This document shows, one piece after another, positions 5,388 to 9,949 of a stretch of DNA of 23,616 bases; the stretch's first letter is position 1, and each line of letters starts with the position of its first letter. Below the pieces are notes generated by a model, which ran no database searches, was not told the origin of the DNA, and saw nothing but the letters and a program-made list of their open reading frames with translations. The translations under genes and the position numbers were made by a program. Origin of the DNA: a virus; IMG/VR virus record IMGVR_UViG_3300021368_000509, positions 1 to 23,616 of that record; one strand, written 5' to 3'.

Positions 5388-5610
5388 CAAAGTCCTCTGC
5401 ATCGCTTACAAGGGCTGTCAGCCACATTTCAGAAAATGCATCGACATCCATCTCTATTGTAATCGATCCGATAAATGGCTCGATAAAGACGTCAGTCCAC
5501 TCGTTGTTTTGTTTGTTACTAATGGCGCCACCGATCTGCTCTACTAAAAATACTGCTGAACCGCCGCCGGGTACTGGTGCTCGCATCATAGGTATCATCG
5601 CCATCCTCAT
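5344..5610 (-). CDS. Hypothetical protein
   Basis: An 88-residue protein that I do not recognise. The start MRMAMIPMMRAPVPGGG is Met/Pro/Gly-rich; the rest is acidic and strand-forming (WTDVFIEPFIGSITIEMDVD). It overlaps the metallophosphoesterase stop by ATGA, so translation is probably coupled. Several in-frame ATGs near the start leave the first residues uncertain. Position within the recombination block is the only hint of role. Confidence 0.6.
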   Translation of the reverse strand: MRMAMIPMMRAPVPGGGSAVFLVEQIGGAISNKQNNEWTDVFIEPFIGSITIEMDVDAFSEMWLTALVSDAEDFDEHGKAIDYEAPLH

Positions 5611-6824
5611 TCTGTAATCATCTTATAGGAAATCGTATTATACGCCACCTGACCGTACGCTTTGTGGTACGTGATGACATTTGCCTCTCGGCCACTGAGC
5701 CAGCCGCCCCGGCTACTATAAGCATCGGCACTGGCTAACGTCCGGTGTTGCTCAACGACCATAAGGTTTGTCTCTTTCTTATCAATTGAGTGATAGTGAC
5801 CCATGTGAGCGTAGGCGTATTCTGTCCTACCAAACACCTCCCGGTACTTAGCAGCAAACACCGTATCAACATTAGCTACCTTGCGTTTATGGCCGTGATG
5901 GAAAAACAGCGCCGTCTTACCAAACTCATAGCAGTAGTAAGTGTCTGCCGTGTTATCGATGAAGACCCGGGGTTCGTTTTCGTATAACGCCGTTAACAGC
6001 TCGCGCATCCAAATAGCAGAAAATGGATCGTGGTTAGCGTCACACCACTTCACATGGACGTGCTTGTGCTTTTCCAGCAGCATCTTAATAATCTTTCGAG
6101 TCACCCGGATCGTGGCCCGGACGATCTTAAAATTACGGGAGTCACTATCTAAAAGATGCTTGGACGATTGTGTGAGCGGCTCGTAGTCATAGTGAGCAAA
6201 GTCACCTAGCTGGGCATACACTGCGGTATCGGCATCAGGGCTTATCCGTATTGCTTCGGCAAACCAGTTAGTTAGTGTCTCCTCAGCGATCTTGAGATCC
6301 CAGTCACCGTTGCCTGTCTGACCAGAGGCATCGACCTCATCTTTGTCAGCCAGCATCCCCATGTGATAGTCGGTAACCACAAAACAGTTAAGCAGGTGGT
6401 CTGCGTTTACCTCGGGAGCAGGGACAGGAGCCTCTGGCTCTATCTCTTCAGACATTGCCTGCACAATCTCGCGCATCATCTCGATTTGTTGGTTAGCGTC
6501 AGCCCGGGTCTTTACCCACGTCATGATGGGCTTGTTATCGGCATCGTAGAGAATGGAGTGACCGCGGGTGACCTCGCCTTCAGGGATCACGTTTAGCCTG
6601 TCGTGACGCGGGGAGAAGCCCTGCAATGCGCTTTTTCTTAAAACGCCTTTCAAGCGATCTCTGACAGCCTTGCGGTCAATGTTGAGCTTTTCGGCTATCT
6701 GATGAACGGTCATCTTATCCACCCAACACAGCTCAATGGCCTCTTTCTGCTTTTCAGTCAGCGTGACCTTTTCTAGTATTTGCCGCGCCTCTTCTTCTGT
6801 GAATGCTCTTGCGACATTGCCCAT
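5607..6824 (-). CDS. Calcineurin-like metallophosphoesterase with N-terminal HTH
   Basis: A 405-residue protein. Residues 20-60 form an HTH (TLTEKQKEAIEL...MTVHQIAEKLNIDRKAVRDRL), a DNA-binding module like those of sigma region 4 or LuxR type. Residues 145-405 form a two-metal phosphoesterase: D-x-H (D152, H154), GD (207-208), N-H-D (264-266), H-H-G-H (309-312) and G-H-x-H (342-345). The usual GNHE/D is here ANHD. The SbcD/Mre11-type fold, the attached HTH and the neighbourhood suggest a DNA nuclease or DNA-end processing enzyme, but phosphodiesterase activity on other substrates is possible. The ATG at 6824 is read from an SD placed in a hairpin loop (6823-6842). Confidence 0.85.
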   Translation of the reverse strand: MGNVARAFTEEEARQILEKVTLTEKQKEAIELCWVDKMTVHQIAEKLNIDRKAVRDRLKGVLRKSALQGFSPRHDRLNVIPEGEVTRGHSILYDADNKPIMTWVKTRADANQQIEMMREIVQAMSEEIEPEAPVPAPEVNADHLLNCFVVTDYHMGMLADKDEVDASGQTGNGDWDLKIAEETLTNWFAEAIRISPDADTAVYAQLGDFAHYDYEPLTQSSKHLLDSDSRNFKIVRATIRVTRKIIKMLLEKHKHVHVKWCDANHDPFSAIWMRELLTALYENEPRVFIDNTADTYYCYEFGKTALFFHHGHKRKVANVDTVFAAKYREVFGRTEYAYAHMGHYHSIDKKETNLMVVEQHRTLASADAYSSRGGWLSGREANVITYHKAYGQVAYNTISYKMITE

Positions 6825-7229: not shown

Positions 7230-7701
7230 TCTTCAAGCCCTCCCATAAAGCGTCCATCGGCGCCATACGCGCGTACTCAAGCTTGCCAGCATCTGCTCTC
7301 TCGATAAAAAGACCTGTGTCTTGCCCTTTATAAACTACCCGGGCTTTATCCCAAAAATGCGATTTCCACATCCACCCCATAAACGACACGTCATCGTTTG
7401 TCACAGAGGCAAACACATAACCCTGAACCCTGTAATCTTTCTGATCTAGAGTGACGTGACCCTCTTGCGTTGAACAAGGTGGTACGTTGCGCTTCTTAGC
7501 CTTGACGTCAATGGTTACGTCTTTCTTACCGTTAACGACAAAATCATAATGGCCTTTCAATGGCCCAACGTAAGAGAATGGAATGTTTCTGGCTAACAGC
7601 TCGTGCGCGAATGCCGCTTCTGCCTGCCATCCTGCAATCTGCCCGGAGCCGTCTGGCTTAATGGTCATCGCGTTATACGGCTTTCCTGTGTATATGCTCA
7701 C
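7204..7701 (-). CDS. PD-(D/E)XK nuclease-like protein
   Basis: A 165-residue protein starting at GTG 7701, which overlaps the previous stop as GTGA and has GGAGG eight bases upstream. A longer reading to 7815 would overlap the previous gene by 118 bp and is rejected. The core fits a PD-(D/E)XK nuclease: E28 in GWQAEAAFAHEL, D53 in GHYDFVVNG, and D65-x-K67 in TIDVKAKKRN, then the strand YVFASV. D-x-K replaces the commoner E-x-K. It resembles phage Holliday-junction or exonuclease-like members, but the substrate cannot be told. The setting between replication-like and recombination genes fits DNA processing. Confidence 0.7.
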   Translation of the reverse strand: MSIYTGKPYNAMTIKPDGSGQIAGWQAEAAFAHELLARNIPFSYVGPLKGHYDFVVNGKKDVTIDVKAKKRNVPPCSTQEGHVTLDQKDYRVQGYVFASVTNDDVSFMGWMWKSHFWDKARVVYKGQDTGLFIERADAGKLEYARMAPMDALWEGLKNVTALDSH

Positions 7702-8087
7702 GCCTCGACCCTCCGGCCATCCAGCGTCATATACTGACCATACTGCGCGAGGCATCGCTGACGAAACGCCTCTGATTCCATGAAGTCGTGGGTCAAACAG
7801 TCCACCGATGTCCAAGCCTTCAGCCCGATTTTACCACGATCCTGTGTTTGAAGTATCTGAGCAGCGAACGGAGATATACCGCGCTCTTCTTTGCTTGCCT
7901 TGTTAAGCCACGCTGTTACAAAGCGCTTGATGCCCTTCCTAGTCTTACGCTTGCTGGCATTAGCATCAGACCATGCGGCCATTGCTAACAGCTCTCGGTG
8001 TACGTCTAAGTCGGGGTAGCTCTGTTGAAGGTAGACAGCGTATTCATCGTCCACCTCGAAGTATGTACCGTCATTAAGAATTATCAT
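7698..8087 (-). CDS. Replication-organiser-like protein
   Basis: A 129-residue protein. Residues 25-62 (YPDLDVHRELLAMAAWSDAN and the following KRKTRKGIKRFVTAWLNKA) match a module I know from the C-terminal part of phage replication-initiation or replisome-organiser proteins (W-x-x-A-N-x-x-K-R-K-T-x-x-G-x-x-R-F-x-x-x-W-L). The N-terminal origin-binding domain of such proteins is absent, so this may be a stand-alone helicase-loader-like or DNA-binding piece. The ATG at 8087 lies within the end of the 57-residue gene upstream (14-bp overlap). The role is an inference from that motif and its place in the early block. Confidence 0.65.
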   Translation of the reverse strand: MIILNDGTYFEVDDEYAVYLQQSYPDLDVHRELLAMAAWSDANASKRKTRKGIKRFVTAWLNKASKEERGISPFAAQILQTQDRGKIGLKAWTSVDCLTHDFMESEAFRQRCLAQYGQYMTLDGRRVEA

Positions 8088-8247
8088 TTAGGTACTTCCT
8101 CAGTTTTTTCCATTTTAGATTCGACTCTAAAACAGCAACCACGATATACGGTTCATTAGGCCACCAAAGTCTGAGTTGCTCTGCTTCTGCAACACAATCA
8201 TATTGCTTAACAATTTCTTTGGTTTCAGCATTAATTATTAAATACAT
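8074..8247 (-). CDS. Small hypothetical protein (57 residues)
   Basis: A 57-residue reading frame from an ATG at 8247. The start reads MYLIINAETKEIVKQYDCVA, the middle AEQLRLWWPNEPYIVVAVLE, and the end is basic (KWKKLRKYLNDNS). Its beta-strand and helix pattern looks like a real small protein. It overlaps the next gene by 14 bp, as neighbours here usually do. The ribosome-binding site is AAGGGAAAG, somewhat far from the ATG. It is the first gene after the 340-bp structured noncoding gap. I do not recognise a family. Confidence 0.65.
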   Translation of the reverse strand: MYLIINAETKEIVKQYDCVAEAEQLRLWWPNEPYIVVAVLESNLKWKKLRKYLNDNS

Positions 8248-8447
8248 ATCCACACTTTCCCTTTTGATGTCCTAACGGACAACAATCCATAAGTTAATAA
8301 TGACGAGCGTTGATTACTGTATCGAATCTTGACATCTATCCGCTTGATCTGCTCTCGACCAGCGGGGCGCATCATAGAGAGGGTCAACTCCGTCTCCGAG
8401 GTTCTTAGGTTCCCCGGCCTAACGCCCAGTAATTTCTGACAAAAGAG

Positions 8448-8520
8448 GAAGACAAGGGTAGTACGAAGACGTACAGGGGTGTCCCATAACGTACACTAGG
8501 TGTATACTACCCAAGTCTTC
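8448..8520. ncRNA. Branched RNA fold, candidate regulatory RNA element
   Basis: Plus-strand reading: GAAGAC (8448-8453), AA, GGGTAGTA (8456-8463) pair with TACTACCC (8505-8512), AA, GTCTTC (8515-8520). This makes a 14-pair stem with one symmetrical AA/AA internal loop. The 41-base interior can fold into GGG-TGT-CCC (8477-8485) and TACAC-TAG-GTGTA (8492-8504), and has a direct repeat ACGTACA (8469 and 8489). Either strand could form the fold. It is not a tRNA: there is no T-loop consensus and no seven-pair acceptor. Paired plus-strand terminator downstream favours a plus-strand RNA, whereas the surrounding genes favour a processing or attenuation element in the minus-strand mRNA. Confidence 0.5.
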
Positions 8521-8566
8521 TCTCATAGCCGAGGTCAAGACTACCACTAAACACCGTTACGGTCAT
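8507..8566 (-). CDS. Possible 19-residue leader peptide
   Basis: A very short ORF, MTVTVFSGSLDLGYERRLG, with the leader TAAGGGAGAAACCACT before its ATG. This matches the Shine-Dalgarno leaders of genes starting at 10535 and 4103. Its ATG lies in the hairpin 8543-8572 and its last codons and TAG enter the arm of the 8448-8520 fold. That geometry is reminiscent of translation-coupled attenuation. There is no independent evidence of translation, and a 19-codon frame can occur by chance. Confidence 0.3.
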   Translation of the reverse strand: MTVTVFSGSLDLGYERRLG

Positions 8567-8572
8567 AGTGGT
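8543..8572. other. Two-part hairpin
   Basis: Plus-strand reading: ACCACTA (8543-8549) pairs with TAGTGGT (8566-8572), and inside it ACCG (8553-8556) pairs with CGGT (8560-8563) around a TTA loop. The small asymmetrical internal loop is AAC opposite CA. It lies between the branched fold and the plus-strand terminator, as if part of one transcript. On the minus strand it covers the start codon of the possible leader peptide. Confidence 0.5.
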
Positions 8573-8581
8573 TTCTCCCTT

Positions 8582-8608
8582 AGCCCCTCAATCGAGGGGC
8601 TTTTTATT
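8582..8608 (+). terminator. Plus-strand intrinsic terminator
   Basis: AGCCCCTC, loop AATC and GAGGGGCT form a perfect eight-pair stem followed by TTTTTATT on the plus strand. On the minus strand the hairpin is followed by AAGGGAG instead of T, so it would not terminate the genes. The stem contains the last codons and TGA of the minus-strand HTH gene at 8588-8794. It therefore implies a plus-strand transcript from the noncoding gap, or protection of the early genes from antisense transcription. No good plus-strand promoter was found upstream. Confidence 0.65.
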
Positions 8609-8794
8609 GAGCAAGTGATAAGTAGCGTACCGCTTGCCATCTCTCACAGTGACCTCAGTATGGATCTGATGACCCTGCATCCTGAGATCATTAATCCTAG
8701 CCGCCAACCGAAAGCAGCCGTAGTTATTCAACGCCTCCATCGCCGTCAGAGGCGCCTTCGACAAGTGGTTTAAGATTTGAATTGTCTGACTCAT
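8588..8794 (-). CDS. Small helix-turn-helix protein (HTH_39-like)
   Basis: A 68-residue winged-HTH-like protein: MSQTIQILNHLSKAPLTAME, then ALNNYGCFRLAARINDLRMQ, then GHQIHTEVTVRDGKRYATYHL. The order of helix, recognition helix and beta-wing, with the C-x-R-L-A-A-R-I-x-D-L-R motif, matches a short HTH family common in phages (Pfam HTH_39 as I remember it). It probably binds DNA as a regulator. GGGAG precedes the ATG at 8794. It overlaps the Cro/XRE gene by 71 bp, the largest overlap in the window, and its stop lies in the plus-strand terminator hairpin. Confidence 0.75.
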   Translation of the reverse strand: MSQTIQILNHLSKAPLTAMEALNNYGCFRLAARINDLRMQGHQIHTEVTVRDGKRYATYHLLNKKPLD

Positions 8795-9023: not shown

Positions 9024-9293
9024 CTAGAACGGTATGTCAGTATCAAAGCCTTCATCTGGCTTAGGCGCCAAAGCTTGACGCGCCTGCTGCATACCCTTTG
9101 CGTGAACCTCTTGCTTGAGCTTTGTGCTCAATCGCATATAGGTGTTGCCATTCTTATCCTTAGCTAACCAAGCGTTCAGCCAGTGATCCTCGCCATTCAC
9201 ATTGGTGTAGCTGCCGGTGTAGTCGGCATCGGTGTCTTTTTCTTTGCGCTCATTCTTGAATAGAACGCCGCGGTTTGTGTTGTCATACTCCAT
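9024..9293 (-). CDS. SSB-like accessory protein with acidic C-terminal tip
   Basis: An 89-residue protein starting MEYDNTNRGVLFKNERKEKD, with a beta-rich middle (DYTGSYTNVNGEDHWLNAWL, then YMRLSTKLK) and ending FDTDIPF. The last residues are close to the DDDIPF tip of bacterial single-stranded DNA-binding proteins, which recruits partner proteins. I recall similar short phage proteins encoded next to single-strand annealing proteins; they lack a full OB fold. Acting beside the ERF-like recombinase in replication or repair is therefore likely. AGGAG precedes the ATG, and the gene overlaps the recombinase stop by one base (TAATG). Confidence 0.7.
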   Translation of the reverse strand: MEYDNTNRGVLFKNERKEKDTDADYTGSYTNVNGEDHWLNAWLAKDKNGNTYMRLSTKLKQEVHAKGMQQARQALAPKPDEGFDTDIPF

Positions 9294-9949
9294 TACGCTT
9301 CTCCTAATATCAGTTTGCGTGCTTCGTTAAACTCGTTTGATTTAAGGTCTTTACGCTCTGCTGTCGTAAAGATCCCGCCTTTACTTGGCGCCAGCCACAA
9401 CGCTTTCTTATCGTCGTTAGTGATCTCGCCCCATGCCTCTGCTACGGCCTCCCAGCTCTGCAAGGCCAGATGTTCCTTGATGAAGTAGACCGATGCATAG
9501 TTACGCTGAAGTGCATCGTTGTGCGCCTCTAGACTTTGGTTTGCTTCAATTGCGTTCTTAGCCGCCTTGTGGGCTAGTTCAGTTTCTTCAATCAGAATTT
9601 TTTGAGAATTCTGTTGAGTCAAAGCATTAATCAACTCATCAGCAGACGCGATTTCTGTTCCCGCCAAACTAGAAGAGAAGAACGCTAAAGCGCGGCCAAC
9701 AGCGCTAGTCTCTGCATTCTCAAGCGCTGACGTTTTATTGATCTTGCTCGCCGCTCTAACTTCTTCAGCGTGTCCTGTTGATATAACTACGCCACCGATT
9801 GCTATCGTGGCCTTCATAATGACTAGCACGTCATTGGCCTCAATCAGCTCTGTTTGAATGGTGTAGTCTGGATGTGCCGCCCTAAACTCTGCGACTCGAA
9901 GTGCCACGGTCTTATATTCTTTACCGTGGATTTTTACTTTACCTGTCAT
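9293..9949 (-). CDS. ERF/Rad52-like single-strand annealing protein
   Basis: A 218-residue protein. The N-terminal half holds a core seen in phage annealing recombinases: GKEYKTVALRVAEFRAAHPD (10-29), the strand-rich DVLVIMKATIAIGGVVISTG, and ENAETSAVGRALAFFSSSLA (about 77-96), the E-x-A-E-T-x-A-v-G-R-A-L motif of the ERF/Rad52-like families. The C-terminal half is helical and charged, probably for oligomerisation or partners. Such proteins pair complementary single strands during phage recombination and concatemer formation. Placement next to an SSB-tipped protein and upstream of NinG and two other nuclease-like genes supports this. The exact subfamily (ERF, Sak or Sak3) cannot be fixed by eye. 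Confidence 0.8.
   Translation of the reverse strand: MTGKVKIHGKEYKTVALRVAEFRAAHPDYTIQTELIEANDVLVIMKATIAIGGVVISTGHAEEVRAASKINKTSALENAETSAVGRALAFFSSSLAGTEIASADELINALTQQNSQKILIEETELAHKAAKNAIEANQSLEAHNDALQRNYASVYFIKEHLALQSWEAVAEAWGEITNDDKKALWLAPSKGGIFTTAERKDLKSNEFNEARKLILGEA

Follow-up and report, generated by a model that had tools for sequence, protein, structure and literature searches.

Compact multi-hairpin antisense RNAs that face the structured leader of a replication gene are known from plasmids, with the countertranscripts of ColE1 (RNA I/RNA II), pT181 and pIP501 as examples. In phages, structured RNA is found in the leaders of early operons, as in the put and nut antitermination RNAs of HK022 and lambda, and GOLLD, ROOL and OLE are further structured noncoding RNAs linked to bacteria or phages. 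OOP of phage lambda is a 77 nt RNA that acts in cis on cII, with decay of the cII mRNA by RNase III (PMC12197685).

Here, we analyzed a window of 23,616 nt, the whole stretch of a 23.6 kb record of an uncultured virus, and describe a noncoding gap that, in the reading we consider reasonably probable, encodes an OOP-like countertranscript sRNA next to a structured 5′ leader and thereby controls an early operon. The likeness to the lambda OOP/pO region is seen in arrangement rather than in sequence: a short, terminator-ended RNA would lie opposite early genes, perhaps between the gene of a DNA-binding regulator and a putative replication gene. At the level of sequence, the predicted RNA has its own conserved −10 box and terminator on the opposite strand; a winged-HTH (wHTH) gene lies upstream and, with one small gene in between in the window, a replisome-organizer-like gene downstream. 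Unlike OOP, the predicted sRNA overlaps the upstream gene by only ~20 nt, within its terminator, and in one relative (L080) a further gene intervenes; phased repeats and a structured neighboring RNA are additional here. The plasmid systems resemble the locus in that a multi-hairpin antisense sRNA would face a structured leader, but we found no − strand promoter, including near the sRNA 3′ end, and neither primer nor attenuator is part of the picture drawn here. Compared with put and nut, to which it is likened by description only, the RNA core is larger and abuts a ribosome-binding site, and compared with GOLLD, ROOL and OLE it is short (~147 nt) and without an Rfam match.

Genomic setting and relatives

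The genes of the window lie on the − strand, and the portal protein is distantly related to those of podoviruses, with the best match, at 47% identity, in Octadecabacter Antarctic DB virus 2. The gap (8254–8587), initially annotated as 340 bp, measures 334 bp and is the largest of the window (Table 1). The 59-aa gene at its downstream border separates the leader from the replisome-organizer-like gene, a point against the proposed reading. The product of the latter gene is similar over 74 aa (35%, E 6e-9) to a portion of a phage replisome organizer. Farther upstream lie an HTH gene, an SSB-like gene and a gene at 9293–9949 with PHROG relatives of no named function. No tRNA or tmRNA was detected in the window by ARAGORN. 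Elsewhere in the window, 5607–6824 encodes a DNA repair exonuclease-like protein (phrog_704) with an N-terminal sigma70 region 4-like HTH (Pfam 1.4e-8).

A search of IMG/VR with the neighboring gene 9293–9949 returned 80 loci, about 50 of which have the gap, and a conserved 24-base pattern retrieved 84 stretches. Flanks matching 8240–8447 are 80–93% identical in many relatives, dozens of uncultured viruses share the predicted sRNA and the core, and four longer relatives carry one copy of the core each.

Table 1 Features of the locus (window positions unless a relative is named)
Feature	Position	Strand	Remarks
Replisome-organizer-like gene	7698–8087	−	Next after 59-aa gene
59-aa gene	8074–8253	−	Downstream border of gap
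Ribosome-binding site and start region of downstream gene	8247–8265	−	Adjoined by core/leader
Small hairpin ahead of ribosome-binding site	8268–8281	−	Relatives have a substituted stem; loops GNNA or CUUG on −
Conserved structured RNA core	8294–8440	− (probable)	Multi-helix domain, probably part of leader
Core helices	8312–8319/8427–8434, 8340–8349/8357–8365, 8366–8369/8423–8426, 8396–8401/8412–8417	−	Within core; strand probable
Left arm of stem	8448–8463		Complementarity kept in 36 unique versions despite differing sequence
10-bp phased repeats GTAC, GTAC, GTCC, GTAC, GTG	8461, 8471, 8481, 8491, 8500 (8461–8502)		Between arms
Predicted −10 box TATACT of sRNA promoter	8503–8508	+	T1, A2, A4, T6 invariant in 50 unique relatives
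Right arm of stem	8505–8520		Overlaps −10 box and initial 6 nt of predicted sRNA
Predicted small RNA	8515–8607	+	~92 nt, three hairpins; relatives compared
sRNA hairpin 1	8515–8541 (8515–8519 with 8537–8541)	+	Pairing kept in almost all of 13 unique helix versions
sRNA hairpin 2	8543–8572 (8543–8549 with 8566–8572)	+	Predicted in most relatives
C-rich motif CTCCCTT	8575–8581	+	Complementary to Shine-Dalgarno-like AAGGGAG; an unpaired C-rich motif is predicted in most sRNAs
Intrinsic terminator of sRNA	8582–8606	+	Against gene direction; overlaps wHTH gene stop codon
wHTH gene	8588–8794	−	PF14090; upstream border of gap
Second core	L072:6100–6750, L080:6250–6900, L077:6100–6700		Same slot

A predicted small RNA opposite the early genes

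Comparison of relatives gives good support to an sRNA gene at this locus. In 50 unique relatives, TATAMT or TACAAT always stands 6 nt ahead of a purine followed by TCTT, an invariance that is partly built in because these sequences were picked by the pattern TATAMT/TACAAT-N6-RTCTT; in a separate check, none of the core-bearing members with a complete region failed it. A convincing −35 box was not seen in most members. At the other end, a terminator-like hairpin with a T run is present on the + strand in 72 of 74 extracted relatives, although the genes are on the − strand. The two exceptions are L066, whose hairpin lacks a good T run, and a case in which the scan chose the wrong hairpin, the real terminator being visible by eye in the fold (L099).

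Since a joint alignment of type I and type II sRNAs misplaced hairpin 1, hairpins were counted sequence by sequence. Among the 13 unique helices of hairpin 1, G-T outnumbers A-C by 10 to 1, which argues for a + strand RNA. The C-rich motif is predicted to be unpaired in 15/25 type I and 11/12 type II non-redundant sRNAs and could pair with Shine-Dalgarno sequences. The phage small RNA proposed in the initial annotation for the 73-base fold at 8448–8520 is thus retained for the locus but not for these coordinates, as the predicted sRNA runs from 8515 to ~8607 and shares only the final six bases with the fold.

A structured core that probably belongs to a − strand leader

On the other side of the fold, the four core helices (8312–8434) covary: 10/26 pairs are altered on both sides and 96.6% of cells are paired, compared with 31–47% in slid controls. 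A shuffle control gave 0/500, a count that ignores relatedness and hence provides no probability. In the reverse-complement alignment 97.1% of cells pair, and three of the four helices reach 99–100%. The strand was judged from non-Watson-Crick changes. By parsimony, gains of A-C exceed those of G-T by 10 to 3 when read on the + strand (~13 events), and an A-C excess on + means G-U pairs on −. For most members with non-Watson-Crick pairs the − model scores ~1–3 bits above the + model; in two (L013 and L024) the + model scores higher. Strand calls by fold energy were dropped because base composition alone yields a similar difference, and those by unpaired base composition because the + strand sRNA has the same bias. 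Also dropped was a pseudoknot between the loop of helix 8396–8417 and 8418–8422, of which the loop varies while the partner is fixed.

A distance of 63–69 nt separates the start region from one core anchor in ~70 distinct type I leaders (start calling was rough for type II), and the first genes after these leaders fall into ~10 unrelated clusters, the commonest being replisome-organizer-like. A fixed distance to the start of otherwise unrelated genes is more readily explained by a − strand leader than by a + strand RNA, and the core probably lies on the − strand as such a leader.

The main competing explanation is a stand-alone + strand ncRNA of ~320 nt, consisting of the core, the variable stem and the three 3′ hairpins down to the terminator. 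The terminator is indeed on +, the changes in the variable stem favor + slightly (G-T 52, A-C 36) and the core covaries whichever strand is read; but the non-Watson-Crick changes in the core favor −, conservation ends at the start codon of the − strand gene at a fixed distance, no conserved + promoter was seen ahead of the core, there is a good −10 box mid-way, and cores and 3′ modules swap (L080), so that we consider one long RNA unlikely.

The variable fold between the two elements

The fold that drew attention to the gap is present where the initial annotation placed it, with GAAGAC-AA-GGGTAGTA ... TACTACCC-AA-GTCTTC at 8448–8463/8505–8520 forming a 14-pair stem with an AA/AA loop, and it surpasses shuffled sequences on both strands: −26.9 kcal/mol on + (z −3.1, 1/200 shuffles equally good) and −30.4 kcal/mol on − (z −4.7, 0/200). 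The two small inner hairpins are part of it but vary among relatives. Elsewhere in the clade other sequences replace 8448–8520, yet the arms are complementary again in each unique version, and conservation extends to this complementarity, to the −10 box and to the RNA domains on either side. That the fold arose by chance and has no function would agree with its unconserved primary sequence but is very improbable given arms that stay complementary through many replacements between strongly conserved flanks.

The direct repeat (8455–8474/8475–8494) belongs to the 10-bp phased array. In 29 unique long-type relatives, autocorrelation of the sequence before the −10 box gave z=26 at lag 10, z=18 at lag 20 and z=11 at lag 30; the period is much weaker in short-type relatives. 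Phasing with the helical turn points to binding by a protein. It would also be expected if 8448–8520 acted chiefly as DNA, with an inverted repeat around an iteron-like or operator array and possibly as a replication origin, to which the replisome-organizer-like gene downstream and the stem without clear strand bias could likewise be referred. We regard this as improbable, because the weak period of the short-type relatives does not fit, the covarying core and the terminator are left unexplained, and GC skew is not reversed at the gap; an origin judged by GC skew was dropped for want of a signal. Of the replication signal suggested earlier, only the proximity to the replisome-organizer-like gene stands.

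The fold is real, though not a free-standing RNA, and in the best reading corresponds to the promoter and repeat region of the predicted sRNA. Its stem, in which the start region of the sRNA pairs with the upstream arm, may represent an alternative fold. The RNase III site that had been considered is possible between the sRNA and the − strand mRNA.

Exchangeable modules and distribution

In L070, L072, L077, L080 and others (~30 distinct sequences), the slot is taken by a second, unrelated structured core, with compensatory helices of its own (GTTGCC/GGCAAC versus GGTGAC/GTCACC; CTAG/CTAG versus AGAG/CTCT). Because L080 combines this second core with a type I sRNA, the parts are evidently exchanged as modules.

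As initially presumed, no known family was recognized: the window and five relatives had no match above the gathering threshold among the 4227 models of Rfam release 15, and nothing convincing appeared at E<=10 within 8200–8700, where mir-71 and other matches (E 2–7) were attributed to chance. By blastn, no cultured phage in INPHARED had the gap, the matches to it being terminator hairpins. One scan of 84,980 bacterial and archaeal genomes for the exact pattern of the type I core gave a single chance match, 23 bases in an Ignavibacteriales MAG (L169) with no core. A weak core match in L073 lies inside coding-like sequence and was also taken as chance.

Proposed mode of action

From these sequence features we infer transcription of two RNA elements placed back to back within the gap. 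A sigma70-type promoter on the + strand, opposed to all genes, would drive the sRNA up to its terminator, with the phased repeats upstream as likely operator or activator sites. The early-gene mRNA on the − strand would carry the structured leader (8440 to 8294), then the small hairpin and the ribosome-binding site, and the gene that follows is often replisome-organizer-like. Since the sRNA would be complementary to this mRNA immediately upstream of the leader, it most likely dampens the operon in an OOP-like manner, through pairing (with RNase III cleavage or altered leader folding) and promoter interference. Pairing of the C-rich motif to a ribosome-binding site is a further conceivable mode, the OOP-like countertranscript being favored. 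More tentatively, the locus may be a cassette of an uncultured clade, in which interchangeable leader cores (at least two, unrelated) at the start codons of many unrelated genes are combined with a dedicated countertranscript sRNA that an operator with 10-bp phasing would control.

From a common viral clade, the locus would contribute one sRNA module and two or more structured RNA cores that Rfam lacks and that were not found in cultured phages. Swapped cores and downstream genes offer a way to study RNA control of early and replication genes beyond E. coli models, and covariation models and exact boundaries make the locus directly testable.

Several variants were noticed besides. In L024 (6673–6857), the hairpin matching 8396–8417 has a big apical insertion, with 55 nt compared with 18 in the model. 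In L006, at about 6397–6554, an unrelated or inverted-looking segment replaces the otherwise conserved CATAGAGAGGGTCAAC. L173, a type II member, has an extra inverted-repeat stretch between the core and the −10 box. Finally, the position after the leader (8247–8253 in the window), where genes of ~10 unrelated families follow in relatives, looks like a site where small genes are inserted or exchanged as cassettes.
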